From NCBI GenBank assembly GCA_020723485.1, contig DYIU01000005.1, forward strand, positions 1 to 64,000: 64,000 nt of DNA, in the 5' to 3' direction. Of the stretch, positions 39,484 through 57,304 are shown in pieces. The DNA is from Acidimicrobium ferrooxidans (GTDB taxonomy: Bacteria > Actinomycetota > Geothermincolia > Fen-727 > Anoxymicrobiaceae). The position numbers and the translations under genes are program-made. Numbering within the stretch: position 1 is the first letter of the stretch; each line of letters begins with the position of its first letter. Under the pieces are notes generated by a model, which was given only the letters and a program-made list of their open reading frames with translations, was not told the origin of the DNA and did not search any database.

Positions 39484-40833
39484 TTACTGGGCGACCATGT
39501 TGCGCAGGTACGTCGATATGTCGGCTGCCTCGCGCGGCCCCACCAGGATCTCCCACTCGGGGAGCTCCTCGTCCAGCTCTCCGGATATCTGCGCTACGTA
39601 ACCGGGGATGACGAGCTTGCGGTGGTTGACCTTGTCGGCTATGCCCGACGTGTTGATGAACTTTGCTATGATGTCCGGCACGAACTTGCCGGCAGCCCAG
39701 GCCGTGAGGACCGACTGGCCCTCCGAGTCGACGATGCCCAGCCACGAGTCGACCTTGCTCGCCTCTATCTCGCCGGAGACGATGAAGTACGTCAGCGAGA
39801 AGTTGGTCGTCACCAGGACCGGGGAGTCCGGGCCCGGCGAGCCGATCTCGTAGAACTTGGCGTCGACGGCCATCGGCTTCTGCGGGTCGGTGTAGATGTT
39901 CTGTATCTCGACCTGCAGCGGGTACTGCATCCAGGCGTCCGGGTCGGAGGTGACCACGATGCCCGCGTACTTGGCGATGTAGATGCCCGCCAGCGCACCC
40001 TCGAAGTAAGCGTCGTCCGTCTCTTCACACGGGAACACTATGGTCGGGAACCCGAACGGCTTGAACTTGGAGTTGAGCGCCCCGCGCCTGATGGCGATAA
40101 GTGCCTCGAGCGTACTCTTGAGGTCGCGGGTGCCCGGGTCGAGCACCAGGTTCTTGAGCTCCATGCCCATCGCCTTTTCGGAGAGCTCGGCAAGCGAGTC
40201 GACCCCGTCACCCTTCACGACCAGCGGCAGGTTCTTCTCTTTGGCGAGAGCGCCCATCGCGTCGAGGTTGGCGGCGGTCGCCGCGTAGAGTAGCGGGTTC
40301 TTGTCGCCGACGGCGTCCACCGCGGCCTTCATGACGTCCACGTCCTCGCTCATCGGCATGAGGGCGAGGTCGGACATCCCCGCGATCTTCTTGAGCACCT
40401 CGGCGAACTTGGCCCCGTCGCCGGACTCGCACTTGACCGCCAGGAGCTTGACCTCGAGCTGCTGGCCTACCCTCTCCCAGGAATCCTTTGTCGCTGCTTC
40501 CACCTTGGCCGTGAGCTCGTCGTCCGCCATTGCGTCGGATACCATGATGGCCATCCCGGTGGGATTCACGAACCTCTTCTCGTGGCGGAACAGTACCAGC
40601 TCCGCGCCCGTCTTGAACTCCTTGGCTCCCTGCCCGACGAGGACCTCGGCGATCGGAGGCGCCGCGGCGTCAGCCAGGGCGTCCTTTGTCTCGTCCGAGA
40701 CGTACGGGCACTCCTCGAGCTTCGCCTGTCCGCCGGCGAGCTTCATGGCGAAAGCCAGGCACGTGGGCACCTTGCACTCACCGCAGTTCGTCTTCGGGAG
40801 CAGCTTGAAAATATCGAGACCGCTCAGTGCCAT
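39484..40833 (-). CDS. acsC: Corrinoid/iron-sulfur protein large subunit
   Basis: This 449-residue subunit carries the 4Fe-4S cluster that reduces cobalt in the CoFeSP. The N-terminal motif TNCGECKVPTCLAFA near 15-29 plus Cys-42 (ECPYV) gives the four cluster ligands. A central TIM barrel follows (LPLVVKGDGV near 203; LVLDPGTRDL near 228), then a C-terminal cobalamin-binding domain. It receives the methyl group from AcsE and delivers it to AcsB. It lies between acsB and metV. Confidence 0.94.
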   Translation of the reverse strand: MALSGLDIFKLLPKTNCGECKVPTCLAFAMKLAGGQAKLEECPYVSDETKDALADAAAPPIAEVLVGQGAKEFKTGAELVLFRHEKRFVNPTGMAIMVSDAMADDELTAKVEAATKDSWERVGQQLEVKLLAVKCESGDGAKFAEVLKKIAGMSDLALMPMSEDVDVMKAAVDAVGDKNPLLYAATAANLDAMGALAKEKNLPLVVKGDGVDSLAELSEKAMGMELKNLVLDPGTRDLKSTLEALIAIRRGALNSKFKPFGFPTIVFPCEETDDAYFEGALAGIYIAKYAGIVVTSDPDAWMQYPLQVEIQNIYTDPQKPMAVDAKFYEIGSPGPDSPVLVTTNFSLTYFIVSGEIEASKVDSWLGIVDSEGQSVLTAWAAGKFVPDIIAKFINTSGIADKVNHRKLVIPGYVAQISGELDEELPEWEILVGPREAADISTYLRNMVAQ

Positions 40834-40895
40834 CTCCCTACTCCTTTCCTTTTCCTTTTATCTTCTGTCGTGTTTGTCTCATGTCGAACTCCCGG

Positions 40896-40921
40896 CCTTC
40901 CTCCCCCGCGGGGGAGGAAGG
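40896..40921. other. Perfect 26-bp GC-rich palindrome between acsB and acsC
   Basis: The half CCTTCCTCCCCCG is followed directly by its exact reverse complement. It lies in the 108-base spacer between the two genes. As RNA it would form a very stable hairpin. No T run follows in the direction of transcription, so RNA processing or stability control is more likely than termination. Confidence 0.55.
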
Positions 40922-40941
40922 CAGCGGAGGGTATCGGGTTA

Positions 40942-43125
40942 TCAGAACATCGGGTCCATCGTGAGCGCCGGGTGGCCCTTCTCCTCGAGGAACGGGAGTA
41001 TGGCCTCCTCGGTCACGCCCACGGTCTCATCGGCTATCTTGTCGATGAAGTCGGGCGTGCCGAGGTCTTCGGCCCTCTTGTCGAGCTGGTCGCGCAGGGT
41101 CTCTTTGAGCTCCTTCGGCATCCAGACCACACGGTGGAATCCCCCGTCGGCGCTGATGAACTTCTTGGAGGTGATGTACACCTTCCCGATGCCCACGAAG
41201 CCGGGTGTCACGTTCCCGCCTCCGACCGAGCCCGCCAGCGTGGAGAACGACATCCCGCAGGGGGTCTCCTTGCCGGTGAACTCGCGGTTGACGATCATGA
41301 CCCCGTTGCACATGGGCAGGAACGCCACGATGCACTCGAAGCAGCCGCACGATGTCATGGGGTCTTCCATCATGGTGTAGGCGTTGAACTTGTCGAGCTT
41401 CTGGCCCGAGTTGTTCCAGACGAACTCGTTTACGTTCTTCCACTGGCCCTTGGCCTCGTCGATGACATCGCCCTTCGGGATGGGCTGGTTCGGACCGGTC
41501 GGGTCGATCTCGTAGGCAGCCTTGCAGTCGAGCCAGTTGTAAGCGCCGCACAGGCCGAGGCGCTCCGGCGTGACCACGCAAACGTGCGTGGGAGCGAACG
41601 ACTGGCATAGCGTGCAGGAGTAGAAGATGTCGGTGGTCTCGTCTATCATGCCCGCGGTGCGCTCGTCGCGGAAAGCGTACTTGTCGCGCGCCTTCTGCAG
41701 CCACTCTTCGGTGTCCTCAGGGTTGGTGTAGATGGTCACTTCGACCTTGTCGACTATGGCCGGGAACTCACCGAGCAGCTTGGCGTGGAGGATGACCCCG
41801 TAGTCGCGTATCTTGAAGCCCTTCTCCTTGGCCTTGTTGCTGATGCGCGTCCAGACGATGTCGCGCTGGCCCATGTGCCAGATGCCCTCGGCGCCGTTTA
41901 TGAGGTGGTGGCACTGCCGCTCGAGGATGGACTCGAAGTCCTCCTGCATCTTGCGGCCCGCCACGTGCACCACGATGCCCAGGGGCAGGGCGCTTCCGGG
42001 CTCCACGTCGTCTATCTCGGGGCCGACGACCGTGATCTTGCCGTCCTCGACCTCGTCCATCTCCTTCATCTCTACGAACTCGAACGCCGGGGTGATGTTG
42101 CCCCCGAACTGCACGTACATGTCCTCCTTGCGGATGCGCTCGCCCTCGAACGCCGGGCCGTACGCCATCGGGATGGGTACCTTGGTGACCTGGATCTTGA
42201 GACCGCGCACCTCCACGGCCTTCTGCACTATCTCGTCGTGCGGGATGTTCGATACTACGTGCTCGTAGGTGCACACCCCGGTCGGCAGTATCTCGGGGAT
42301 GGGAGTGTCAGCTATGGTCGGGAACCCGTAGTTGATGGCGCCCGCGGCGTTGGCGTACCATTCGTCGGTGACCTCGCCTAGCGCCATTACGAACGCGAAG
42401 ATGCGGTTCTTGTTGTAGAGCAGGACCTTGCGAAAGTCTCCCGGGTTGGCGCCGCCGAAGCTCATCGCAGCGCGGGCGGCGAAGCCGAGAGAGTACACCG
42501 CCGAGCCTATCTCACGCCCGTAAGGGACGATGCGGGTCTCCCAGCCGAGCTGCACGTTGATGCTCTCGAGCTGCTCGGCGACGGTGGTGCCGTTGTAATT
42601 GCCGCTGGTCCAGACGTACAGGTTCTTCTCCTGGAGCTCCTTCACGATCTTTTCGGCGGTTTCCGGGTCAGGGGCGCTCCCGATGAGCGCGCAGAATCCG
42701 GGAGCCGTGCCATCCACGAACTCGACTCCCCGCTCGCGCATGATGACGTCGTCAGCCGCGCCGAGCCATATGCCGTCAACCGGGTTGGGGCCGTCGACGT
42801 ACTTGATGGCCTCCTCGATCTCCTCCATGAAGAGGGTGGCCATACCAGCGTCGAGGCCGGGGCCGAGGTACGGGGTCCACAGGTCTTCCCTCGGTATCGG
42901 CGGCAGGAGCTCTTCCGCTATCTTCATCACCTTCGGGCAATCGCCGAGGTTCTCGACCTTCTCGCCGGTCATGCCGTAGATTATCGGCAGGTAATATGCG
43001 GTGTTGGGAAAGCCTATCTCCTGGCTCTCACCGTACTTCTGAAGCGCTTCATCGAGCCTCGCGGCCACCCTGTCATGGATGGCGTGCGCTCCCCTGATCG
43101 CCGCGCTCAAGATTATCTTGGACAT
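40942..43125 (-). CDS. acsB: Acetyl-CoA synthase, CODH/ACS beta subunit
   Basis: This 727-residue enzyme joins CO, a methyl group and CoA at the nickel-iron A-cluster. The ligand cysteines are all visible: SCTLCQSFAPTHVCV with RLGLCGAYNW at about 503-530, and the distal nickel site SCGCFEC near 593-597. The length matches the bacterial enzyme with its N-terminal CODH-contact domain (the archaeal form lacks it). It lies directly downstream of cooS, as in Moorella-type clusters. Confidence 0.96.
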   Translation of the reverse strand: MSKIILSAAIRGAHAIHDRVAARLDEALQKYGESQEIGFPNTAYYLPIIYGMTGEKVENLGDCPKVMKIAEELLPPIPREDLWTPYLGPGLDAGMATLFMEEIEEAIKYVDGPNPVDGIWLGAADDVIMRERGVEFVDGTAPGFCALIGSAPDPETAEKIVKELQEKNLYVWTSGNYNGTTVAEQLESINVQLGWETRIVPYGREIGSAVYSLGFAARAAMSFGGANPGDFRKVLLYNKNRIFAFVMALGEVTDEWYANAAGAINYGFPTIADTPIPEILPTGVCTYEHVVSNIPHDEIVQKAVEVRGLKIQVTKVPIPMAYGPAFEGERIRKEDMYVQFGGNITPAFEFVEMKEMDEVEDGKITVVGPEIDDVEPGSALPLGIVVHVAGRKMQEDFESILERQCHHLINGAEGIWHMGQRDIVWTRISNKAKEKGFKIRDYGVILHAKLLGEFPAIVDKVEVTIYTNPEDTEEWLQKARDKYAFRDERTAGMIDETTDIFYSCTLCQSFAPTHVCVVTPERLGLCGAYNWLDCKAAYEIDPTGPNQPIPKGDVIDEAKGQWKNVNEFVWNNSGQKLDKFNAYTMMEDPMTSCGCFECIVAFLPMCNGVMIVNREFTGKETPCGMSFSTLAGSVGGGNVTPGFVGIGKVYITSKKFISADGGFHRVVWMPKELKETLRDQLDKRAEDLGTPDFIDKIADETVGVTEEAILPFLEEKGHPALTMDPMF

Positions 43126-43171
43126 CCAACTCCTCCTTGTATCGGTCAGCTACTACTGGCCGTCGCTATCA

Positions 43172-45124
43172 CTACTCGATGGACAGGTCGCGCCTCATCG
43201 CCATGTCGTACAGGACACGCTCGCGCTTCCCCAGGATCCCGAGCGCCTCGCGCTTGTTATCTATGAGGCTCAGCAGCTTGCCGACCATCTTCTCGGGATC
43301 TTCCTCGAAGTGCCAGCTGTTGCCGTACTGCTCGAATATCCCTTCGAACAGGTAGTCAGTCAGCTTCTGGCTGCCGGTCGTGGGCCAGCTCGCGCCGAAC
43401 ACAACGGCTGCTCCCGAAGCCACGAAGTACTGACCGATGGCGATGGCTTTCTCGCTCATCCACTCGGGTGCGCAGCCGACGGCGGGCAGGTCGGATATGT
43501 CATCTCCCAGGCCGCCCTCGTGCACCATCGCGGTGAGAGCTATCAGTATCCGGCTGTTATCGACGCAGGAGCCGACGTGCAGCACAGGCGGTATACCGAC
43601 GGCCTCGCATATCTCGCGCAGTCCCTGCGGCATGATGCCTTCCTTGTAGGCGACCTCTGGGGTCATGAGCCCGGTCTTGGCAACCTCCTGGGCGGCGCAA
43701 CCGGTCATCACGACCAGGCAGCCGTTCGCGACCAGTTCCTGCACCACGCGCACGTGGTTGCCGCCTCCGGTGACCCGGGGGTTGGAGCATCCGACCACAC
43801 CCACGACGCCGCGGATGCGGCCGTCGATGATCCCGTCGTTCAGGGGCCTGTACGAAGCGCGGAAGCGGCCGCCGAGCATGTAGTTGATGTACTCGTGGTC
43901 GTAGCCCGCGATGAAATCGCTGGTCTTAGCCGGTATGTCGACCTCTCCCCTGTTCGGGAAGTTGTCGATTGCCATCTCCACGATCTTCTTGGCTGTGGAA
44001 AGCCCGGTCTCCTCGTGGAACTCGACGTACTCGGCGCTGGGCATCTTTGCCTTGGGGCTGGTCGTTATCACCTTGGTGTGGAAGCAGTTCGAGAGCTCGC
44101 CGACCGCCTGGTACACGCACTGGACGTCGACTATCATCGCGTCCACCGCGCCCGTTATTATCGCGAGCTCCTGCTGGAGGACGTTGCCCGCGACCGGGAT
44201 GCCGTGCCGTGAGAGTATCTCGTTCGCCGTGCAGCAGATACCGGCGATGTTTATGCCCTTTGCGCCTTTCTCCTCGGCCTTCTTCAGCATGTCCTCGCTC
44301 TGGCTGGCGAGCAGTATCATCTCGGAGAGGAGCGGCTCGTGGCCGTGCACTATGATATTTACCTGGTCCTTATCGAGCACCCCAAGGTTGATCTTGGCCT
44401 GCAGGGGCGTGGGGGTCCCGAACATTATGTCCTGCAGCTCGGTGCCCACCATCGAGCCGCCCCAGCCGTCGGCCAGCGCGCAGCGCGAGCCCTGCAGCAT
44501 GATGTTCTCCATCTGCTGGTCCACGCCGATGGAGGTGCGGTGCATCGTCTCGACGACCTCGCGGTCGATCCCGCGGGGGAAGATGCCGAGCTTGCGCCAT
44601 ATCTCCTTGCGCTTCTCCGGGGCCCTCAACCCGAACGCCAGCTCGCCTTCCTGCTGGCCGAACATCGCCATGCAGGCCTCGCCGACGTCGAGCGCTATCT
44701 CCTCGACCGGACGGTCGCCGACCTCGATACCGAGGTCCGCCGCCACCTCGAGCAGCTTTATGCGGTCCTTTATCTGGTAGCCCTCGGCCTCGCCCTTTGC
44801 GGCCATGATGAAAGTGTGGGCTACGGCCCTGCCGTGGTCCGAGTGGGCGGAGGAGCCGGCGGCTATCATCCGCGCGAAGTTTCGCGCGGAGACCACTTCG
44901 GCGGTGGCGCCGCAGATGCCGCGCTTCTCCGGCTCGCCTTCCTTCTTGGGCGGCGTGAGCCTGCACGGGCCCATGTTGCACGTCTTGCAGCAGATACCGC
45001 TCGCGCCGATCGTGCATACCTTCAGGCTCTCCGAACGGCTGAACGCGGTCTCGTGCTTTTCCTCGTCAGCCTTCTTGAGCATCTCTATGGATGCTTCGCA
45101 GGATGTCCTGTCTTCGTAATCCAA
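43172..45124 (-). CDS. cooS: Carbon monoxide dehydrogenase catalytic subunit
   Basis: This 650-residue Ni-Fe enzyme reduces CO2 to CO for acetyl-CoA synthesis. The N-terminal cysteines in KVCTIGASGICCKTCNMGPC near 36-54 supply the D and B clusters. HGHEPLLSEM near 265 and AGICCTANEIL near 300 contribute to the C-cluster region, and HVGSCVDNSRI near 520 follows. It is transcribed with acsB, with a 46-base spacer, and cooC nearby supplies the nickel-insertion ATPase. Confidence 0.95.
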   Translation of the reverse strand: MDYEDRTSCEASIEMLKKADEEKHETAFSRSESLKVCTIGASGICCKTCNMGPCRLTPPKKEGEPEKRGICGATAEVVSARNFARMIAAGSSAHSDHGRAVAHTFIMAAKGEAEGYQIKDRIKLLEVAADLGIEVGDRPVEEIALDVGEACMAMFGQQEGELAFGLRAPEKRKEIWRKLGIFPRGIDREVVETMHRTSIGVDQQMENIMLQGSRCALADGWGGSMVGTELQDIMFGTPTPLQAKINLGVLDKDQVNIIVHGHEPLLSEMILLASQSEDMLKKAEEKGAKGINIAGICCTANEILSRHGIPVAGNVLQQELAIITGAVDAMIVDVQCVYQAVGELSNCFHTKVITTSPKAKMPSAEYVEFHEETGLSTAKKIVEMAIDNFPNRGEVDIPAKTSDFIAGYDHEYINYMLGGRFRASYRPLNDGIIDGRIRGVVGVVGCSNPRVTGGGNHVRVVQELVANGCLVVMTGCAAQEVAKTGLMTPEVAYKEGIMPQGLREICEAVGIPPVLHVGSCVDNSRILIALTAMVHEGGLGDDISDLPAVGCAPEWMSEKAIAIGQYFVASGAAVVFGASWPTTGSQKLTDYLFEGIFEQYGNSWHFEEDPEKMVGKLLSLIDNKREALGILGKRERVLYDMAMRRDLSIE

Positions 45125-45159
45125 CTGTCCTCAACTCCTCACTCTCTCCGGGCTCCTGA

Positions 45160-45181
45160 CGGCGGGTCTCATGGCCCGCCG
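45160..45181. other. GC-rich hairpin between acsD and cooS
   Basis: CGGCGGG and CCCGCCG form a 7-bp stem around an 8-base loop in the 64-base spacer. It is one of several such hairpins in spacers of this array. Confidence 0.45.
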
Positions 45182-45188
45182 GCGCGCG

Positions 45189-46127
45189 TTAGCCCATCAA
45201 GCTGTCGATGACTTTTCTGACCGTCTTTATGGCGTCGGGGTGGCGCATTATCACGACGTCGGCCCCCGCGACCAGCAGCGAGCTGGCCGTGAGGATCTCC
45301 CAGAGGACACCCCTCTTGTTCTCGTCGCCCCATGCCGGCTCGTCGGCGGCGGGCGCCTTGGCCTCTTTGGCCTTCCAGGCCTCTACCCCGACGTCGGCTA
45401 TGAGCGGCATCTGGGTCATGCTGTCGTCCTGTCGCAGGGCAGCGATCTTGAACCTCTCCATCACGGAGTAGGTGTACTCGAGCCCGTAGCCCAGCGCGCC
45501 GGTGGTGGGGTCGACCAGTATGTTGCCGACGTCCACGCCCAGGTTGGACAGCAGGATGTTCAGCTGCTTGGCAAGGTTGACGTCGATGGGGGTCTTGGCC
45601 GCGACTGTCTGCTTGTAGCCCAGCGCGGCGGCGCCAACGGTCTTGTAGTTATCCTCGTTGGCGGGCCCGAGCACGACGTTCTTGCCCTCGGTGGCAACAG
45701 CGGCGGCCTTCAGCACGTCGCCGTCCTTATCCACGTCCTCGGAACCGTAAACTATGACCGGGATGCTCACGGCCTCGGCGACAGCCTTGGCGGTCTGGGC
45801 CGCCTCTTCGGCAGGCTTGTCGTCGCCCTTGGGGTCGGTGCTCTTGAGACGCAGGGCGATTAGGTCCGCGCCCCACTCGTCCTGGGCCTTCTTCGCCCAC
45901 GCGACGGGGTCTGCCAGGACGTCCTTGAGAGGCTCGGCCACTACGGGAGACCACTCCTGCGGGTTGTCGTCATAGACCTCTACGGCGATGAGCGGGCGGT
46001 TCGGCATCTCGCCCTCGAACAGGTAAAACGGGAGGATGTTCTCCCCGCCGACCTTGACGTCGCCGGTACCGAGGGTCACTTCACGTATCTTTGACTCGCT
46101 CGTCTCCTTAGGCATCTCAAACGCCAT
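45189..46127 (-). CDS. acsD: Corrinoid/iron-sulfur protein small subunit
   Basis: This 312-residue TIM-barrel protein is the CoFeSP delta subunit (CdhD-like). Markers are TLGTGDVKVGGENILPFYLF near 19, VEVYDDNPQEWSP near 49 and LVDPTTGALGYGLEYTYSVM near 201. It pairs with AcsC to hold the corrinoid between AcsE and AcsB. It lies between folD and cooS, with ordinary spacing. Confidence 0.94.
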   Translation of the reverse strand: MAFEMPKETSESKIREVTLGTGDVKVGGENILPFYLFEGEMPNRPLIAVEVYDDNPQEWSPVVAEPLKDVLADPVAWAKKAQDEWGADLIALRLKSTDPKGDDKPAEEAAQTAKAVAEAVSIPVIVYGSEDVDKDGDVLKAAAVATEGKNVVLGPANEDNYKTVGAAALGYKQTVAAKTPIDVNLAKQLNILLSNLGVDVGNILVDPTTGALGYGLEYTYSVMERFKIAALRQDDSMTQMPLIADVGVEAWKAKEAKAPAADEPAWGDENKRGVLWEILTASSLLVAGADVVIMRHPDAIKTVRKVIDSLMG

Positions 46128-46201
46128 TTGGTTCCACTTCCTTTCTAGCTTTACTTGCCTTAAACCGCATTGATTTTAGTCAAAAGGCCCTTATCTATCC
46201 A

Positions 46202-47113
46202 TCAATCCATGCCGGCCTGCATCTTGGCCGCGGTCAGAGCGTTCTTGAGCAGCATCATGTTCGTCACCGCGCCGACGCCGCCCGGCACCGGGGTTATCGC
46301 CTTGGCCTTGTCCTTCACCGCATCGAAGTCGACGTCTCCGACGGTCTTGGTCTTGGGCTTGCCCTTGTCGTTCAGCACCGGGTTGCCCTCATCGTCGAGC
46401 ACCTTCACCCTGTTGATGCCGACGTCTATCACTACAGCGCCGTCCTTGACCTGGTCGGGGGTTATGAGGCCCGCCTTGCCGGCGGCCACTATCAGGATGT
46501 CGGCCCCGGTGGTGTGCTTCTCCAGGTTTCCGGCCTGGGAGGTGAATATGTGGGTCACGCTGATGGTCGCGTTGCGGTTCAGCGCGAGCATCGCGACCGG
46601 CTTTCCAACGATGTTGGAGTGTCCGACCACCACTATCTCGGCTCCTTCGAACTCGACCCCCACCCTGTCCAGCAGCTCTATGCACGCCGAGGGCGTCGCC
46701 GGAGCCAGGGTCGGCTCACCGAGAAGGAGGCGCCCCATGTTGGCCGGGTGGAAGCAGTCGATGTCCTTGTCCTCGCGGATGTTCCGGATGACGGCCGAGT
46801 CGGATATGTGCTCGGGGTACGGGCGCAGCGGGAGTATGCCGCTTACCGCCGGGTCTTCGTTGAGCTCCTTGACTATCTGGATGACCTCTTCCTCGGTAGT
46901 CTCGGCCGGGAGGGTCTTCTCGATGTAGTTGAACCCCACCGACTCACAGTTCTTCTCTACCTGGCCGCGGTACATCTTCGACCCGAAGTCGTCGCCGACC
47001 AGCAGGGTGGCGATGCCGGGGGCCAGGCCCTTGGCCTTCAGCTTCTCGGTCTCTGCGACTATCTCCGCCTTGATCTCGTCGGCTATCGCGTTGCCGTCTA
47101 TTATCTCCGCCAT
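46202..47113 (-). CDS. folD: Methylene-THF dehydrogenase FolD, cyclohydrolase site altered
   Basis: This 303-residue protein has the FolD fold: VGDDFGSKMYRGQVEKNCES near 40, GHSNIVGKPVA near 165, VIDVGINR near 228 and ITPVPGGVG near 275. The usual YxxxK lysine is Val-52 (YRGQV) and the Gln of the VQLPLP motif is Leu-96 (GILPLRPYP), while the KDxD Asp is kept. Both lost residues are needed for methenyl-THF cyclohydrolase activity in human and E. coli homologues. It is therefore probably a dehydrogenase only, with FchA next door doing the hydrolysis. Confidence 0.88.
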   Translation of the reverse strand: MAEIIDGNAIADEIKAEIVAETEKLKAKGLAPGIATLLVGDDFGSKMYRGQVEKNCESVGFNYIEKTLPAETTEEEVIQIVKELNEDPAVSGILPLRPYPEHISDSAVIRNIREDKDIDCFHPANMGRLLLGEPTLAPATPSACIELLDRVGVEFEGAEIVVVGHSNIVGKPVAMLALNRNATISVTHIFTSQAGNLEKHTTGADILIVAAGKAGLITPDQVKDGAVVIDVGINRVKVLDDEGNPVLNDKGKPKTKTVGDVDFDAVKDKAKAITPVPGGVGAVTNMMLLKNALTAAKMQAGMD

Positions 47114-47122
47114 TTCTACCTC

Positions 47123-47749
47123 CTACCCGAGCTTCTTGTACGTGACTTCGACTACCCTGTCCTTGAGTTCGGCCGTACGGGAAAGTATATCTGTAATGCC
47201 CGACCATTTCTCCTCGTTGAACGCGGAGTCCTTGATGGTCGCGAGGTTGATCTTCACGTTGAGCGCCGCGGACTGCGCCGCGGCGTCCGCCAGCAGCACC
47301 GCCACGCCGGCGTCGCTCACCGCCCCCACGTTGCCGATGTCCGCTGCCACCTCGCTGAGCACCGCCACCTCGAGGCACTGCTCTGCGATGGCGTATGGCA
47401 CCATCGTAGCCTCTTTGCATGCGGACTGTATGGCTTCGTTCCGGGCGGCCTTCTCCTCATCGGTCTCGCGGGGCATCTTGAACGCACCAGCCAGCACCCC
47501 GTAGACCTCAGTGTCTTCCTGCACCAGTTCCTGAAGCCTCTTCCTGACCTTCTCCGAGTCGTCTACGAGCTTCGCTATCTCGTCCTGGACGTCGGCGTAC
47601 TTCTCCTTGCCTACGGTTAGGTTCGCCACCATGCTCACCAGCGCCGCGGCGATGGCCGCCGCCAGCGCGCTCGCCGACCCTCCGCCCGGCTCCGGGGAGC
47701 TCGAGGCGAGCTTGTCCAGGAAATCGACTATCTTGCCCTCTACGTACAC
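47123..47749 (-). CDS. fchA: Methenyl-THF cyclohydrolase FchA
   Basis: This 208-residue protein of the formiminotransferase-cyclodeaminase/cyclohydrolase family has the SSPEPGGGSASALAAA motif near 17-32 and the helical core ending KDRVVEVTYKKLG. It converts formyl-THF to methenyl-THF in the methyl branch. The GTG start shares its G with the TAG stop of cooC. It is followed by folD after 9 bases. Confidence 0.9.
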   Translation of the reverse strand: MYVEGKIVDFLDKLASSSPEPGGGSASALAAAIAAALVSMVANLTVGKEKYADVQDEIAKLVDDSEKVRKRLQELVQEDTEVYGVLAGAFKMPRETDEEKAARNEAIQSACKEATMVPYAIAEQCLEVAVLSEVAADIGNVGAVSDAGVAVLLADAAAQSAALNVKINLATIKDSAFNEEKWSGITDILSRTAELKDRVVEVTYKKLG

Positions 47750-48522
47750 TAATCCCTCACCCCCTGAAGAACGTTCTGCATTATGGACCGGACCGCCGTC
47801 CTCGCCGCGGAGCCCTCAGGCAGGTCTATGAGCGGCCGGCCTTCCTGGTCGAACCGGGCGACCTCGGGGTCGTCCGGGATGATGCCCGCAAGCTCAATGT
47901 CGAGCCCCTCCACCTCTTCGGCCAGCGGCCCGGTGAGCTCGCCGCGCAGGCGCGACAGCACGAGGTAGAACCTGCTCACCCCGATCTCCATCTCGCGCGC
48001 AAGGTCACGGATGCGCATGGCCGTTGCGAGGCCGCGGTGCGCCGGGTCGCTCACGATGAACATCACGTCAACCCCGCGTGTCGTGCGCCGGCTCAGGTGC
48101 TCCATGCCGGCCTCGTTGTCGACAACCACGTACTCATAACCTTTGTTCAGACGGTCGAGAAAGACCCGGAGCATGTTGTTTATGGCGCAGTAGCAGCCGG
48201 GCCCCTCAGGCCTGCCCATGCTGATGAGGTCAAAATCGGGCGTCTCTACCAGTGCCTGCTCTATCTGCATCTCCAGGATGTCCTGCTTCGCCATCCCGGC
48301 GGGGAGCGTCCCCTTGTGCGTCTTCTCGGACATGTCCTCGCGTACGGCCCCGATTGTGGCATCGAGTTCGACACCGAGGGCGATGTCAAGGTTGCTGTTC
48401 GAGTCGGCGTCGACCGCCAGTATCGGTTTCAGGCCTTCGTCGAGCAGGTACCTCACGATAAGGGAGGACAGAGTGGTCTTGCCGACCCCGCCCTTTCCCG
48501 ATATCGCGATCACCCTGCTCAA
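47749..48522 (-). CDS. cooC: CooC-type nickel-insertion ATPase
   Basis: This 257-residue MinD/CooC-family ATPase has the deviant Walker A ISGKGGVGKTTLS near 7, DADSNSN near 38 and the nickel-binding pair GCYCAINN near 109. It loads nickel into CooS or AcsB. The gene is joined on both sides: its ATG overlaps the stop of the RACo gene (ATGA) and its TAG overlaps the fchA GTG. Confidence 0.9.
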   Translation of the reverse strand: MSRVIAISGKGGVGKTTLSSLIVRYLLDEGLKPILAVDADSNSNLDIALGVELDATIGAVREDMSEKTHKGTLPAGMAKQDILEMQIEQALVETPDFDLISMGRPEGPGCYCAINNMLRVFLDRLNKGYEYVVVDNEAGMEHLSRRTTRGVDVMFIVSDPAHRGLATAMRIRDLAREMEIGVSRFYLVLSRLRGELTGPLAEEVEGLDIELAGIIPDDPEVARFDQEGRPLIDLPEGSAARTAVRSIMQNVLQGVRD

Positions 48523-50507
48523 GCTCCTTCACCCCCGGCTTCCCGCCCCAGGCGGGCGGTCTCCCTTGCCTCCTCGAGCCTGAGCTTCACCGATGGGAAA
48601 TCGTCGATGTGCGTGTGGGGCAGGAACAGCGCCGAAACGTACTGGTCCATGAACTTGTTGTTGGTCGAGAGCTCGAGGTAGGTCATCATGTTTGCGATGT
48701 TGTCGGCCTCGGCTATGAGGTTCTTGGAGAGCGCCATCAGGTAGCTCCCCAGGAGCGAGCCGTTGCCCACGAACTTGATCCTCTCGGTATCGACGTCAGG
48801 CAGCAGGCCTATGATTATCGCCTTGTCGATCTCGAGGTACCTGCCGAAAGCACCGGCGATGAGTATCTCCTCGACCATGTCGACGGTCATGCCGACCTCT
48901 TCGAGCAGGATGTTGATGCCGGCGTAGATGGCCGCCTTTGCCCTCATCAGGTTGTCGATGTCCGGGTCGGTGATGACTATGTCCCGCGACGTGCCGCTCT
49001 CGTCGGCCCAGGCGAGCACGTACTCGCCTCCCCAGTCTCCCTGGCGTACGCGCGGGTTTGTTTCAGACAACTCTGTCTTTATCTTGCCCCTCTCGTCCAG
49101 GATGCCCGTCAAAAAGAGCTCGGCCAGCGCGTCGATGAGGCCGGAGCCGCAGATGCCGATGGGCCGCTTGTTCCCGACGGTGATTATCATCGGCTCGAGC
49201 GTGACCTCGTTGATGCGGACCTGCTCGATGGCGCCCCTGGTCGCGCGCATCCCGTGCTTCACCCCGGCGCCCTCGAACGCCGGCCCGGCGGAGCACGAGC
49301 ACGAGATGAGCCAGTCCTTGTTGCCGAGGGCCATCTCACCGTTGGTGCCTATGTCGATGTAAAGCGTTATCTTCTCGGAGTTGAACATCCCGCTCGCCAG
49401 CACCCCGGCCACTATGTCTCCGCCGACGTAGGAGGCGACTCCCGGGGTACAGCGCATGTAGACGCCTGAAGCTATCCTGATGCCGATATTGCTCGCCTTT
49501 ATCCAGGGGAAGTACTGGGCCACAGGGATGTAGGGGTCGACCCTTATGTAGCGCGGGTCGATGCCGAGCAGCAGGTGCGTCATCGTCGTATTGCCCGAGA
49601 TGCACAGGTGGGTGATGTTGCAGTACTCCATGTTGGTCTGCTCCACCATCTGCTGGATGAGGTTCCAGATGGTGTTCACGGCCGCCGACTGCAGCTTGGC
49701 GAGTCCCGTGGAGCGCGTGGAGTAGATGATGCGGCTTATGATGTCCTCGCCGAAGGATATCTGCCCGTTGTAATCGGACGCCTCCGCGATTACCTTTCCG
49801 GTCTGGAGGTCCACGAGCTGCGTCGAGACCGTGGTGGTTCCCAGGTCGACCGCGATGGCCGCCTGCCCCTGCGAGGTGTCGCTCTTCTCTATGCGCACCG
49901 CACGGAGCTCCTGGCCCCGGTCGAGCACCGTGACCGTGACGTCGAAGCTGGCAGCCCGTATCAGTCCGGGCAGCACCTGCAGCATCGGGAAATCGACGAC
50001 CACGTCCTTGAGGCCGGCGAGCCTCGAGAGCTCGCGCTTGATGCGCTCGGCGTCGCTCAGGTTGTCCTCGAGGGTGGGCTTGTCGAGGACCAGGTGGAAC
50101 TTGGTGGTGGGGGGGTTGAGCTCCCACTGGGGCAGCCTCTCGGCCCAGTCCTTTGCCGACAGCGTATAGCCTTTGAGCGGAATCGGCGGCCGCCTGGTCA
50201 GCGCGCTCTTGTCCCCTATCTGGGACTCGATCGGCACGCGTATGTCGGCGTCGCTCTCGAGCGTGGCCGAGCAAGCGAGCACGTACCCGCGCTTTATCTC
50301 CTCCTCGGAGAGCTTGACCTGGAGCTTCTGCTTGACATCGCCTTTCTCGACGATGACCCGGCACTTGCCGCAGTAGCCCTCGCCTCCACACGAGGCGTTA
50401 ATATGAACGTCGGCCTTCATGGCCGCGCGCAGTACGTTCTCTCCTTTGTCCACTTCTATGCACCGGTCTTCCGGGTAGAAGCAGACCCTTACTTTTCCGT
50501 TCTCCAT
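48519..50507 (-). CDS. Reductive activator of CoFeSP (RACo), DUF4445-type
   Basis: This 662-residue protein has an N-terminal 2Fe-2S ferredoxin domain (INASCGGEGYCGKCRVIVEK near 36-55, with a further Cys near 77), a linker, and a C-terminal ASKHA ATPase domain. That domain includes AVDLGTTTVSTQLVD near 220, YIDIGTNGEMALG near 382 and AGAFGRYLEID near 550. It restores the Co(I) state of the corrinoid protein with ATP. The ATG at 50507 is preferred over the TTG two codons upstream. It overlaps cooC at its end. Confidence 0.9.
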   Translation of the reverse strand: MENGKVRVCFYPEDRCIEVDKGENVLRAAMKADVHINASCGGEGYCGKCRVIVEKGDVKQKLQVKLSEEEIKRGYVLACSATLESDADIRVPIESQIGDKSALTRRPPIPLKGYTLSAKDWAERLPQWELNPPTTKFHLVLDKPTLEDNLSDAERIKRELSRLAGLKDVVVDFPMLQVLPGLIRAASFDVTVTVLDRGQELRAVRIEKSDTSQGQAAIAVDLGTTTVSTQLVDLQTGKVIAEASDYNGQISFGEDIISRIIYSTRSTGLAKLQSAAVNTIWNLIQQMVEQTNMEYCNITHLCISGNTTMTHLLLGIDPRYIRVDPYIPVAQYFPWIKASNIGIRIASGVYMRCTPGVASYVGGDIVAGVLASGMFNSEKITLYIDIGTNGEMALGNKDWLISCSCSAGPAFEGAGVKHGMRATRGAIEQVRINEVTLEPMIITVGNKRPIGICGSGLIDALAELFLTGILDERGKIKTELSETNPRVRQGDWGGEYVLAWADESGTSRDIVITDPDIDNLMRAKAAIYAGINILLEEVGMTVDMVEEILIAGAFGRYLEIDKAIIIGLLPDVDTERIKFVGNGSLLGSYLMALSKNLIAEADNIANMMTYLELSTNNKFMDQYVSALFLPHTHIDDFPSVKLRLEEARETARLGREAGGEGA

Positions 50508-50534
50508 GCTCAACTCGTCTCGAGGTCCCCTGGA

Positions 50535-50554
50535 GGCCGGCCTTGAGGCCGGCC
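50535..50554. other. GC-rich hairpin between fhs and the RACo gene
   Basis: GGCCGGCCT and AGGCCGGCC form a near-perfect palindrome with a 2-base centre in the 66-base spacer. A possible processing or stability element. Confidence 0.45.
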
Positions 50555-50573
50555 CCCTGGTTCTCTCGTGTTT

Positions 50574-52289
50574 CTAGAACAAGCCTACTATCCTGCCGCC
50601 CTCTACGAGGTCCACCTTGTTTCCGGCCGGCTCGCTCGGGAGGCCGGGCATGGTCCTCATCTCGCCGCACAGCGGGTAGAGGAAGCCTGCGCCGATGGTC
50701 GGCTTGACCTCTCTGATGGGCAGGCGCCACCCTGTCGGACGGCCCTTGAGGTTCGGGTCATGCGACAGCGACAGGTGTGTCTTGGCCATGCAGAGGGGCA
50801 GCTTGTCGTAGCCTGCCTCGGTGAACTGCTTGATGTTGGCCTCGGCGACCGGCGTGTAGTCGACCCCGTCCGCCCCGTATATCTTGGTCGCTATGGTCTC
50901 TATCTTCTCCTTGATGGAGGCGTTGATGTCGTAGAGGTACTTGAAGTCCTTTGGCATGTCGCATGCCTTGACGACCGCTTCGGCGGCTTCCTTGCCGCCG
51001 TCGCCGCCCTTGGCCCAGACCTCGATCGGCTCGCAGAAGTCGGCCCCGGCCTTGAGGGCGATGTCCTGCACCATCGCGACTTCCTTGTCCGTGTCGGTGG
51101 TGCGTCGGTTGACCGTCACCACGACCGGGATGCCGAACAGCTTCATGTTCTCGATGTGCTTGACCAGGTTCTGGCAGCCTGACTCGAGCGCGGGCATGTT
51201 CTCCGCGGCCTGGAGCTTCTCGTCTATCTTCTTGCCCGGCCTCGCTTCGAAGGCGCCGCCGTGCATCTTCAGCGCGCGCACGGTGCTGGTTATTACCACG
51301 CAGTCCGGGACGATGCCGTACTTCTCCATGGCGCGGACCTTGATGTCCATCATCTTCTCGGCACCGCAGTCGGCCCCGAAGCCGCTTTCCGTGACAACGT
51401 AGTCACAGAGCTTGGTGGCTATGGCGTCGGCAACGACCGAGTTGTTGCCCTGGGCGATGTTGGCGAACGGCCCCGCGTGCATGAAGCAGGCGTTGCCCTC
51501 GAGCGTCTGGATGAGGTTCGGCAGGAACGCGTCCTTGAGGAGGACCGCCATCGAGCCGGCGCACTTGAGGTCGGCGGTGGTCACCGGCTTGCCGTCGTAG
51601 GTGTAGGCGACCACTATCCTGGCCAGCCGATCCTTGAGGTCGTCCAGATCGGAGGCCAGAGCGAGGATGGCCATGACTTCCGAGGCAACCGCTATGTCGA
51701 AGCCGGTCTGCCGGGGGTACCCGTTCTGCCTGCCTCCCAGGCCCACGACGATGTCGCGGAGCGCGCGGTCGCTGATGTCGGTCACGCGGCGCCAGGAGAC
51801 GGTGAGAGGGTCGATGTTGAGCGGGTTCTTGAGAAGGATGCTGGTGTCGATGTACGCGGCACAGAGGTTATTGGCCGCGGTCACCGCGTGGATGTCGCCG
51901 GTGAAGTGGAGGTTCAGGTCCTCCATCGGCACTACCTGGCTGTAGCCGCCGCCGGCGGCCCCGCCCTTTATGCCGAACACCGGGCCCATGCTGGGCTCGC
52001 GCAGGCAGATGATGGTGTTCTTGCCGATCTTGTTCATGGCCTCGGTGAGGCCGATGGAGGTGACAGTCTTGCCCTCGCCGAGGGGCGTGGGGGTTATGGC
52101 CGTCACGTCGATGTACTTGGCTGTTGGCTTGTCTTTGAGGCGGTCGATAACGTCGAGGTGTACCTTGGCCTTGTACTTGCCGTACAGTTCGAGGTCTTTC
52201 TCCTCGAGCCCGATCTTCTTCGCGATCTCCACGATTGGCTGCATTTTCGCGGCCTGTGCGATCTCGAGGTCGCTTGGAACTGCTGCCAT
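50574..52289 (-). CDS. fhs: Formate-tetrahydrofolate ligase
   Basis: This 571-residue enzyme makes formyl-THF from formate, THF and ATP, the entry step of the methyl branch. It has the nucleotide-binding TPTPLGEGKTVTSIGL near 66, REPSMGPVFGIKGGAAGGGY near 97, and the folate region ending GFLYPLCGEMRTMPGLPSEP near 535. GGAGGGGC precedes the ATG. It is the first gene of the array and has a long leader with a promoter at 52489-52517. It is slightly longer than the usual 556-560 residues. Confidence 0.96.
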   Translation of the reverse strand: MAAVPSDLEIAQAAKMQPIVEIAKKIGLEEKDLELYGKYKAKVHLDVIDRLKDKPTAKYIDVTAITPTPLGEGKTVTSIGLTEAMNKIGKNTIICLREPSMGPVFGIKGGAAGGGYSQVVPMEDLNLHFTGDIHAVTAANNLCAAYIDTSILLKNPLNIDPLTVSWRRVTDISDRALRDIVVGLGGRQNGYPRQTGFDIAVASEVMAILALASDLDDLKDRLARIVVAYTYDGKPVTTADLKCAGSMAVLLKDAFLPNLIQTLEGNACFMHAGPFANIAQGNNSVVADAIATKLCDYVVTESGFGADCGAEKMMDIKVRAMEKYGIVPDCVVITSTVRALKMHGGAFEARPGKKIDEKLQAAENMPALESGCQNLVKHIENMKLFGIPVVVTVNRRTTDTDKEVAMVQDIALKAGADFCEPIEVWAKGGDGGKEAAEAVVKACDMPKDFKYLYDINASIKEKIETIATKIYGADGVDYTPVAEANIKQFTEAGYDKLPLCMAKTHLSLSHDPNLKGRPTGWRLPIREVKPTIGAGFLYPLCGEMRTMPGLPSEPAGNKVDLVEGGRIVGLF

Positions 52290-54564: not shown

Positions 54565-54635
54565 CTCGCCCTCCAGGTCAGGAAAGCAGCTGCGGAGTCT
54601 ACGTCAAAAGGCACTTCTCGCCCTCCAGGTCAGGA
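54565..54635. repeat. 19-bp direct repeat at the hydrolase 3' end
   Basis: CTCGCCCTCCAGGTCAGGA occurs at 54565-54583 and again at 54617-54635. The second copy includes the stop codon of the hydrolase gene, so the first looks like a duplicated gene end 52 bases away. Confidence 0.6.
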
Positions 54636-55295
54636 GAGGAAATCGGACACGAGGTTGACTACCTCACGTTCTCTTCCGAAGAGGAAGTGGTCGGCGTCGG
54701 GCAGTACCGTGACGTTGCGGGCGTCTTCCGCTGATATCGCGGCTGCGAACTCCTGCAGCGCGGCGGGCGCGCAGAACTGGTCGAACTCCCCGACTATGTA
54801 GTGCCTCGTTGCTTCAGACGATACCAGGCGTTCAGCCACCGCGCCCCAGTCGTGGAAATCAAGCGGGGGAGCGACCACGGCGCATGCCGCAGCCGGCAGC
54901 CCGTCGGCGAGCGCCTTCAAGGCCATCCAGGAGCCGAACGACCAGCCGGCCAGCCCGACTGGACCCGCGGCTACCTCCTCCAGGCCTCCTAGGAATTCAC
55001 AAGCCGCGAATATGTCTTCCGGCTCGTCGGCGCCGTCAGTGAACGTCCCGGTGCTGCGGCCCACTCCTCCGAAGTTGAACCTCAGTGCTGCCACACCGCG
55101 AGCCGAAAGCTCCTCGCAGATGAGCCTTATCAGCCCGACCGACATCTCTCCCCCGCCCATCGGGTGGGGGTGGCAGACCACCGCGCCGGAGAAGGGGCCC
55201 GCGCCGGAGGGCACGTGGAGCCTGCCTTCCAAATCGATGGGGCCGGTTGTCCTCCGGCACGGTATCCTCACGCTTCGGTCGCCCAAGTCGATCAC
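54630..55295 (-). CDS. Alpha/beta hydrolase (dienelactone-hydrolase-like)
   Basis: This 221-residue protein has VVCHPHPMGGGEM near 35 with the oxyanion loop, FNFGGVGRSTG near 75, the nucleophile elbow GLAGWSFGSWMA near 110 and a C-terminal DADHFLFG catalytic His. It matches the CHPHPxxGG subgroup of serine hydrolases, often annotated as alpha/beta hydrolases of unknown substrate. The GTG at 55295 lies two bases after the ferredoxin stop; no good ribosome site is seen, so translational coupling is likely. Confidence 0.72.
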   Translation of the reverse strand: MIDLGDRSVRIPCRRTTGPIDLEGRLHVPSGAGPFSGAVVCHPHPMGGGEMSVGLIRLICEELSARGVAALRFNFGGVGRSTGTFTDGADEPEDIFAACEFLGGLEEVAAGPVGLAGWSFGSWMALKALADGLPAAACAVVAPPLDFHDWGAVAERLVSSEATRHYIVGEFDQFCAPAALQEFAAAISAEDARNVTVLPDADHFLFGREREVVNLVSDFLS

Positions 55296-55297
55296 CG

Positions 55298-55705
55298 CTA
55301 GAACTTGACCGTGATGAGCTGGAGCGGGCATGCGTCGACACACAGCCCGCAGAGTATGCAGCGGTCCTTGTCGAGCTGGAGCTCCCAGTCGGGAGCGCCC
55401 ACCTTGAGGGCCTTCGTGAGGCAGACGGCCGTGCAGGCGCCGCAGTCGATGCAGAGCTCCTCGGTCCTCTCGATGTCGGTTATGGCGTCCTCCACCTGCA
55501 CCCCGAGGTCCTTCAAATGTTTGACCCCCTCGCGGATGCGCTTGGCGTCGCCCTCGAGCTCGACCAGCATGCGGCCTATCTCGCCCTCGTGTATCTCGGC
55601 CCTGAGGATGTTGGTTATGACGTCGTATTCCTTGACCATCATGGCCACGACAGGGCGCTCCACCACCTCGGGCGGGAACGTCAGGACAAGCCTCTTCTTT
55701 GCCAT
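55298..55705 (-). CDS. NIL-domain 4Fe-4S ferredoxin, homocysteine biosynthesis partner
   Basis: This 135-residue protein has an N-terminal NIL domain (about 1-70) and two 4Fe-4S motifs: CIDCGACTAVCLTKAL near 82-97 and CILCGLCVDACPLQLI near 113-128. In methanogens such as Methanosarcina (MA1822) this protein works with the DUF39 protein MA1821 to make homocysteine from aspartate semialdehyde and sulfide. Its ATG directly follows the stop of the DUF39 gene, so the pair is one unit. Confidence 0.88.
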   Translation of the reverse strand: MAKKRLVLTFPPEVVERPVVAMMVKEYDVITNILRAEIHEGEIGRMLVELEGDAKRIREGVKHLKDLGVQVEDAITDIERTEELCIDCGACTAVCLTKALKVGAPDWELQLDKDRCILCGLCVDACPLQLITVKF

Positions 55706-56872
55706 CTAGATCCCCTCCCCGTCGCGTATGTCCAGCCCCTGGACGGTCCCCTCTGTCGGGAGGAGCTCCACAGGGCCGGTCAGCTGGAACTCACCCTCGG
55801 TGATCCATCTCTTGAGCTCGCCGGCGATGTCACGGGCCACCCTGTAGCTCGAGAGGGGCGCGCACGGCGTCTTCCTGCCGTCGATCTCGATAGTCCCCGA
55901 CCTCAGCTGCGCGTAGCTGACCTTGCCCAGCGGGTCGCGAGAGCGCGTCGGCTGGCTGTAGTCGAATATGGAGGTGAATATCTCGGAGTCTGAGACCCCG
56001 GTGAACGCCGCCATCTCCTCGTCGAGGACCGGTATCGGGATGCCCACACCTACGTAAATCGAAACGCCGTACCTGTGGAACCGGGCTCCGCGGATGAACC
56101 TGGAATCCATCTCCCGGATGTCCCCGATGAGCGCCAGGGTGCCGGCGGGTCCGAGGGGCGTACCGCCGGGAGAGCGCGGCGCGGACGGCTTGTGCTGTGT
56201 GCCCTGCCAGGCCACGTACCCGTGCCCTCCGCCCAGGAAGATCCTGGTCCCGATTCCGATGGTCCTGTAGAACGGGTCGTTGAGCAGTGGGCTCAGCTGG
56301 CCGGCGCTGCAGTACGTCGCGTTGCCGAAGTTCGGCAGCAGCACTCCCATGTAGGTATAGATGGTCCTGTCGGAGCCGTTCGTGGCGCAGGCGTAGTTCT
56401 GGTACGCGTTGCGCGGGTTGAACAGGTACGCCTGGTTCAGGGTATCCTTGTTCACCCAGGTCTCGATCTCGCGCCTGGGGTAGCAGTCGGTCCCGTAGGC
56501 AGTGGCCTTGAGCTTCACCCACTTGCCCTCTATGAGGTCCTGTATGACGTGCGCTCCTCCGTACGCCATCCCCTCTGTATCGCTCATCGCCGTGGCGCCG
56601 ATGTAGGCGTCGACCGCAGCGACGTCCGCGCAGACCGGCACGTCGTTCAGCCAGACCTTGCTCATCTTTATCGGGGGCTCGCTGTGGCCGAAATTCACGA
56701 ACGCTCCCGAGGAGCACATCGGCCCGAACGTCCCCGTTGTGACGACGTCTACCTTCCTGGCGGCCTTCGCGGCCCCCTCGGAAGCTACCAGCTCGGTCAT
56801 CTCCTCCGCAGTGAGCACGACCGCGTCACCTTTCCTGATACGCTCGTTGATATCTTCCAATGTCTTTGCCAC
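55706..56872 (-). CDS. HcyBio (DUF39) homocysteine biosynthesis protein
   Basis: This 388-residue protein matches the HcyBio/DUF39 family: TTGTFGPMCSSGAFVNFGHS near 45, YGGAHVIQDLIEGK near 103, ATAYGTDCYPRRE near 122 and FLGGGHGYVAWQGTQHKP near 213, with conserved cysteines. It incorporates sulfide into aspartate semialdehyde to give homocysteine together with the adjacent ferredoxin. The usual members carry C-terminal CBS or NIL parts; here NIL is in the partner. The GTG start follows GGGAGGTGAG. A T-box leader controls it. Confidence 0.88.
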   Translation of the reverse strand: MAKTLEDINERIRKGDAVVLTAEEMTELVASEGAAKAARKVDVVTTGTFGPMCSSGAFVNFGHSEPPIKMSKVWLNDVPVCADVAAVDAYIGATAMSDTEGMAYGGAHVIQDLIEGKWVKLKATAYGTDCYPRREIETWVNKDTLNQAYLFNPRNAYQNYACATNGSDRTIYTYMGVLLPNFGNATYCSAGQLSPLLNDPFYRTIGIGTRIFLGGGHGYVAWQGTQHKPSAPRSPGGTPLGPAGTLALIGDIREMDSRFIRGARFHRYGVSIYVGVGIPIPVLDEEMAAFTGVSDSEIFTSIFDYSQPTRSRDPLGKVSYAQLRSGTIEIDGRKTPCAPLSSYRVARDIAGELKRWITEGEFQLTGPVELLPTEGTVQGLDIRDGEGI

Positions 56873-56911
56873 AATCTCACCTCCCGTTTACCTATTCTTG
56901 TGTCAACAAAC

Positions 56912-56942
56912 AAAAAACCCTTCGCCCGATGGGGGCGAAAGG
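56912..56942 (-). terminator. T-box regulated terminator hairpin
   Basis: The stem CCTTTCGCCC / GGGCGAAGGG on the minus strand is followed by TTTTTTG. Its 5' arm competes with the T-box antiterminator just upstream. It ends 40 bases before the HcyBio GTG. Confidence 0.8.
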
Positions 56943-57175
56943 CTCCAGCCTCCGCGGTACCACCCCACTTCACGCCTGCCTCGCGGCGGGCGCCTCGTCG
57001 GGTACGGCCCGGTCTCGCGGGATATACCCTGGTCCTGTAACGGGGACTTCCGCCCGGTTCTACTCACGGATGCCGTCCGCTTTCCTCCGGGAGCTCGGGG
57101 GCCATGTTCGAGAAGGCCTGCGGCGCCGGCTCCCACCGTCCCGGCTCGCTTCAGCCCGGTGTCTTCTCTACTCTT
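56912..57175 (-). promoter_or_regulatory. T-box leader with methionine (AUG) specifier
   Basis: On the minus strand the leader has the specifier-loop S-turn AGTA (57172-57169) with GAGAAG/CTTCTC (57168-57163 with 57115-57110), then GAAC and the codon ATG (57105-57103). Downstream is the canonical T-box GGGGTGGTACCGCGG (about 56967-56953), followed by the terminator CCTTTCGCCC/GGGCGAAGGG and a T run (56942-56912). Uncharged tRNA-Met would prevent termination and switch on HcyBio. Confidence 0.85.
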
Positions 57176-57304
57176 CCCCTTCAACGCTGTTGGGTTATCT
57201 TATTGTCAACAGATACAATGTTGTGTGGTAAACCTACCAGTTTGGTCGGAAAGTGTCAAGACAGTGCCGGAGGAGTTGTGAGCACAAGTCCCGAGGGGTC
57301 GAGG

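Follow-up and report, generated by a model that had tools for sequence, protein, structure and literature searches.

The window analysed here (the whole stretch of 64,000 nucleotides) carries a gene pair predicted to serve sulfide-dependent homocysteine synthesis, HcyBio (DUF39, COG1900) and a NIL-ferredoxin, behind a leader in which the sequence-only reading had seen a methionine-specific T-box. The question raised by this locus is whether the leader indeed reads tRNA-Met and, if so, what it tells about the purpose of the pathway.

T-box leader of the HcyBio operon

Both strands of the region were analysed. The Rfam covariance model RF00230, run as an E-value scan, matched the minus strand at 57193..56928 over its full length (model positions 1-219) with 76.9 bits and an E-value of 5.5e-17, and a terminator and then both genes follow, which confirms the proposed T-box leader ahead of the pair. 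It had been placed within 55298-57175; the position was correct, with the 5' end lying slightly beyond, at 57193. The match is below the curated Rfam gathering score for RF00230 (93 bits), and the default scan of the window at this cut-off therefore reported no T-box. The gathering cut-off is a curation threshold and not a structural feature, and was not treated as defining for a T-box; it was exceeded in just two of five control genomes having an RF00230 match, and T-boxes ahead of ordinary amino-acid genes in Actinomycetota (L178-L180) were also under 93 bits. The features of the locus are as follows.

57231..57259, minus strand: likely promoter TTGACA-N17-TAGGTT, read from the sequence
56928..57193, minus strand: T-box riboswitch leader RF00230, full length (covariance model 1-219)
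57103..57105, minus strand: AUG specifier (Met), within GAA-C-AUG-G-CC in the specifier loop of stem I (Rfam alignment, calibrated columns)
56956..56962, minus strand: T-box bulge UGGUACC (alignment and fold), its UGGU able to pair with ACCA at the tRNA-Met 3' end
56931..56967, minus strand: antiterminator helix with the 7-nt bulge UGGUACC, -18.0 kcal/mol when folded alone
56914..56946, minus strand: intrinsic terminator with U tract, competing with the antiterminator (terminator scan and fold, -21.7 kcal/mol)
55706..56872, minus strand: HcyBio / DUF39 (COG1900) gene, 388 aa, GTG start (PF01837, 522 bits, 1-349 of 349)
55298..55705, minus strand: NIL-ferredoxin gene, 135 aa, directly after the HcyBio stop (TAG-ATG) (PF09383, 60.8 bits, and two 4Fe-4S motifs)
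54630..55295, minus strand: possible third operon gene, an alpha/beta hydrolase (weak PF02129 and related matches; start 55295-55293 by reading)

Stem I with its specifier loop, the distal AG-bulge/loop and the stem II region are all covered by the full-length alignment. With each helix folded in isolation, CUUUCGCCCC is common to the antiterminator and the terminator, and the leader has the mutually exclusive pair of helices by which the T-box class is recognised. TTGACA-N17-TAGGTT is the likely promoter of the operon as judged from its sequence; it also stands ahead of the T-box in L008 (genome G002), and TTGACA-N17-TACGTT is found in L026 (genome G007). A consensus promoter scan found nothing upstream of the leader, as the -10 hexamer fits the consensus too poorly. 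A mechanically called mnmA reading frame on the plus strand overlaps the leader at 57104-57304; as the family match begins only at residue 67-68, mnmA probably starts at ATG 57305. Elsewhere in the window a Wood-Ljungdahl cluster occupies 39484-52289 on the minus strand and encodes CODH/ACS subunits, a CooC-like ATPase, the corrinoid activator RACo and formate-tetrahydrofolate ligase.

Conservation of the T-box at HcyBio

HcyBio was present in 30 of the 31 Ca. Geothermincolia genomes and a T-box in 18, one in each genome, including the window genome (G000), where a genome-wide RF00230 search gave the HcyBio leader alone. As HcyBio directly follows the T-box in all 18 cases, the linkage is not due to chance, and one T-box per genome devoted to one operon across the class is a striking pattern. 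The other 13 genomes lack the T-box or have lost it; some of these assemblies are incomplete or break off at a contig end. Aquicultoria (L056, and L059 grouping with it) and Coriobacteriia-like genomes (L078, L080, L084, L089, L090, L097 and L115) also have a T-box upstream of HcyBio, always with GAA-C-AUG-G and UGGUACC. The comparison of DUF39-operon leaders thus shows the Met T-box recurring in all three groups, and every HcyBio T-box found in them has the AUG specifier. Among Bacillota, a SAM riboswitch (RF00162) was found upstream of HcyBio at 12 of 20 loci scanned, 11 of them within about 350 bases.

Some leaders of the class deviate. The bulge of L008 (G002), ~133 nt 5' of HcyBio, reads UGGCACG instead of UGGUACC, due to decay, changed pairing or an assembly error. 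The sensing domain is gone from L026 (G007), ~100 nt 5' of HcyBio, and from the start of L013 (G006), where a promoter and a terminator-like hairpin remain; both of these genomes also have metX-metY.

Other routes to homocysteine

The window genome encodes a second candidate route on C11.

G000:C11:433282-435716 (L155 8259-10825): metX-metY pair, side by side (TIGR01326 and NF001209)

Both genes scored over the cut-offs of their models (metY, TIGR01326, 651 bits; metX, NF001209, 488 bits). HcyBio as the sole homocysteine route of the window genome was therefore rejected. A full metA/metB or metY route under the same T-box would have spoken against a methionine role for the HcyBio leader; the metX-metY pair carries none. 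No Rfam RNA was found in about 20 kb surrounding it and no SAM riboswitch in a search of the whole genome, and a T-box or SAM riboswitch shared by the pair was rejected, the sole T-box of this genome being at HcyBio. The distribution of metX-metY in the class is patchy, as the pair occurs in just 6 of 31 genomes. Full-length PF01053 proteins were likewise found in 6 of 31, and in two (G000 and G023) of the 18 with a T-box; in the other 16, several of them incomplete assemblies, HcyBio is the sole candidate homocysteine synthase seen. It thus appears to be the only homocysteine route in most T-box-bearing relatives.

Given metX-metY, the window leader might be a decaying relic that is no longer needed or working, and leaders of this kind do decay, as the bulge of G002 and the bare promoter and terminator-like hairpin of G007, also a metX-metY genome, indicate. 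In the window leader, however, the specifier and UGGUACC are intact, as are both competing helices and the U tract, which makes decay an improbable explanation. We therefore retain a working Met T-box as the preferred reading.

Identity of the HcyBio enzyme

HcyBio together with NIL-ferredoxin is required for homocysteine formation in Desulfovibrio and Methanosarcina (PMC5764234, PMC12068725). For the Methanosarcina protein MA1821, Cys54 and Cys131 are named (PMC12068725); Cys53 and Cys130 of the window protein, set beside them by residue number, are invariant in 19 relatives. A domain search gave no CBS domain match in the window HcyBio protein. The putative alpha/beta hydrolase at 54630..55295 is possibly the third gene of the operon.

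COG1900 also includes the coenzyme M synthase MMP16 (PMC12068725), and the window protein has a partial match of 136 bits to TIGR03287. The T-box could accordingly be Met-specific while the pair makes another thiol such as coenzyme M (cf. methanogenesis marker 16), methionine being merely a signal. The match is, however, far under the equivalog cut-off of 363.95, the gene has cysteines that by residue number would correspond to those of COG1900a and a separate NIL-ferredoxin like the homocysteine enzyme, and many Bacillota homologues stand behind SAM riboswitches; we regard another product as very improbable, and homocysteine as the product to be preferred.

Specifier codon and tRNA-Met

The specifier columns of the Rfam alignment read AUG in the window leader, at 57105-57103. 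The same columns hold CUC at leuS, GUC at valS and two ilvD genes, UAC at tyrS and UGG at trpE, a calibration on six T-boxes whose target genes were assigned by reading their translations. As the columns give the correct codon in all six, the specifier is AUG and not CAU or UGG, in agreement with the sequence-only reading, which had placed AUG beside GAAC and had named a different specifier as evidence against itself. The loop GAACAUGG does include the triplets CAU (His) and UGG (Trp), but a T-box reading one of these neighbouring codons, one base off, is hardly credible given this calibration, a base 5' of AUG that is C or G among HcyBio T-boxes (so that CAU is not conserved) and a homocysteine gene under control. 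A sequence-pattern search found one elongator and one initiator tRNA-Met gene in the window genome, both encoding A73-CCA, and the UGGU bulge fits either end. Either of the two may be the one sensed; in the Met T-box of Staphylococcus, the initiator tRNA was shown to bind (PMC3771891).

Altered leaders in a sister clade

The sister families f5-f7 (14 genomes, outside the window) carry a leader that has changed unevenly. Stem I with AUG has a mean identity of 91.7% among the 14 genomes and the position homologous to UGGUACC 62.2%; the HcyBio codons have 61.2% at third and 89-92% at first and second positions, under the assumption of gap-free first 200 HcyBio codons. In G016, G017 and G021-G030 (e.g. 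L002 938-1150), stem I with AUG is near-invariant, and drift at the UGGUACC position has kept pace with that at third codon positions. The f7 genomes read UGAUACG, ACGAACG, ACAAACG or AGAGACG there and are without UGGU, which G013 and G015 retain at the bulge position (UGGUAUG, UGGUUUCC). The HcyBio proteins of f5-f7 belong to a different deep clade from that of the window family (tree support 100), which looks like a replacement of the gene downstream of the leader. The f7 Met T-box may, with somewhat less than even confidence, have turned into a leader that reads tRNA but has no recognisable T-box element. If this is true, the f7 leader would answer tRNA-Met without the usual probing of the acceptor end, or work via a leader peptide. 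The sister clade is a natural experiment in what a T-box can lose while still under selection. Single SAM riboswitches were noted away from HcyBio at G013:C2:4900-5003 and G015:C49:6020-6120.

A short open reading frame with the motif (L/V)W(I/V/A)M and a strong Shine-Dalgarno sequence lies about 60-80 nt 5' of HcyBio in the f5-f7 leaders (L002, L014, L028 and others), where C replaces W in G015; the same frame is present in L004 (G014), L114, L116, L118, L119, L125 and L259. Among the 31 genomes the pattern was found before HcyBio in 15, its single further occurrence lying within a coding frame of G011, and within the class it is specific to HcyBio. The 3' part of the Geothermincolia frame and the ribosome-binding site of HcyBio are able to form a predicted helix. 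It shows compensating changes (CCUCCCG/CGGGAGG, CCUCCCUU/AAGGGAGG, CCUCCCA/UGGGAGG and CCUUCUCC/GGAGGAGG), the covariance being judged by eye and by single-sequence shuffles that failed to reach significance in about half of the genomes. One idea is that a ribosome stalling at the AUG codon would open the ribosome-binding site, as a putative function of the peptide. Peptides of this kind also stand ahead of HcyBio here and there in genomes that carry the labels Dehalococcoidia, Planctomycetota, Omnitrophota and Deltaproteobacteria. In the sampled phylum to which G057 belongs they are rare (1 of 82 usable upstream regions, G057 itself not counted). A displaced UGGU bulge in GGUGGUGGU of the leader peptide, in the style of a translational T-box, was also considered; we lean against it because GGUG is also present in this element at loci of other phyla that showed no T-box motif upstream of HcyBio, where it fits a strong Shine-Dalgarno sequence.

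Proposed mechanism

Taken together, a canonical transcription-attenuating T-box specific for tRNA-Met very probably controls the HcyBio-NIL/ferredoxin operon for homocysteine synthesis, with tRNA binding, antitermination and enzyme activity as its predicted parts. The anatomy and codon position of the window leader, the tRNA-Met ends and the conserved linkage are shown by the sequences. The reading is supported by the RF00230 match, the calibrated AUG, A73-CCA, the competing helices, the linkage in 18 of 18 cases and the SAM riboswitches of Bacillota; against it stand the score under the gathering cut-off, the presence of metX-metY with no T-box of its own and the missing T-box in 13 of 31 genomes. 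When methionine is short, the anticodon CAU of uncharged tRNA-Met would pair with the AUG specifier, and the 3' ACCA of the same tRNA would pair with UGGU in the bulge. The antiterminator would thereby be stabilised, so that transcription would reach HcyBio and the ferredoxin. HcyBio would then convert aspartate semialdehyde and sulfide to homocysteine with electrons supplied by the ferredoxin, and charged tRNA-Met would let the terminator form. The NIL domain of the methanogen enzyme is reported as methionine-binding (PMC12068725), and such binding would here provide a further layer of control, on the protein itself.

The sequence-only reading had taken a Met T-box as direct evidence that the pathway feeds methionine synthesis; the link to methionine is supported, whereas regulation is no proof of enzyme activity. 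Independently of enzymology, it does offer evidence at the regulatory level for a role of the DUF39/NIL-ferredoxin route in methionine synthesis among uncultured, deep-branching Actinomycetota.

Comparison with known systems

T-boxes of Actinobacteria at ileS control translation, and their stem I is shortened. The window leader shares with them a T-box in Actinomycetota and differs in its long stem I, its terminator, and its target and codon; T-boxes before ileS in Actinobacteria are known here through works cited in PMC2494555 and PMC7778990 (Sherwood 2015 in the latter). In the text searched, the T-box surveys PMC2494555, PMC3766115 and PMC7778990 do not mention DUF39, COG1900 or the HcyBio gene, and a T-box on HcyBio was not found in the literature searched.

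The metICFE-mdh operon of Staphylococcus (PMC3771891) similarly has an AUG T-box and a terminator before methionine-synthesis genes; unlike the window operon, it belongs to another phylum and encodes the O-acyl-homoserine/cystathionine route, and binding of the initiator tRNA was shown there whereas the ligand of the window leader is predicted. The routes of Methanosarcina (MA1821-MA1822) and Desulfovibrio use the same two protein families from adjacent genes, with putatively equivalent conserved cysteines (PMC5764234, PMC12068725), and have COG2122 as their third gene; the window protein differs from the methanogen subunit in having no CBS match and in its T-box control. The SAM riboswitch RF00162 at HcyBio in Bacillota is likewise an RNA switch linking the gene to methionine status, and senses S-adenosylmethionine where the window leader would sense tRNA-Met charging. 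The window system is a combination of parts each already known, and the unusual material sits in the sister clade.
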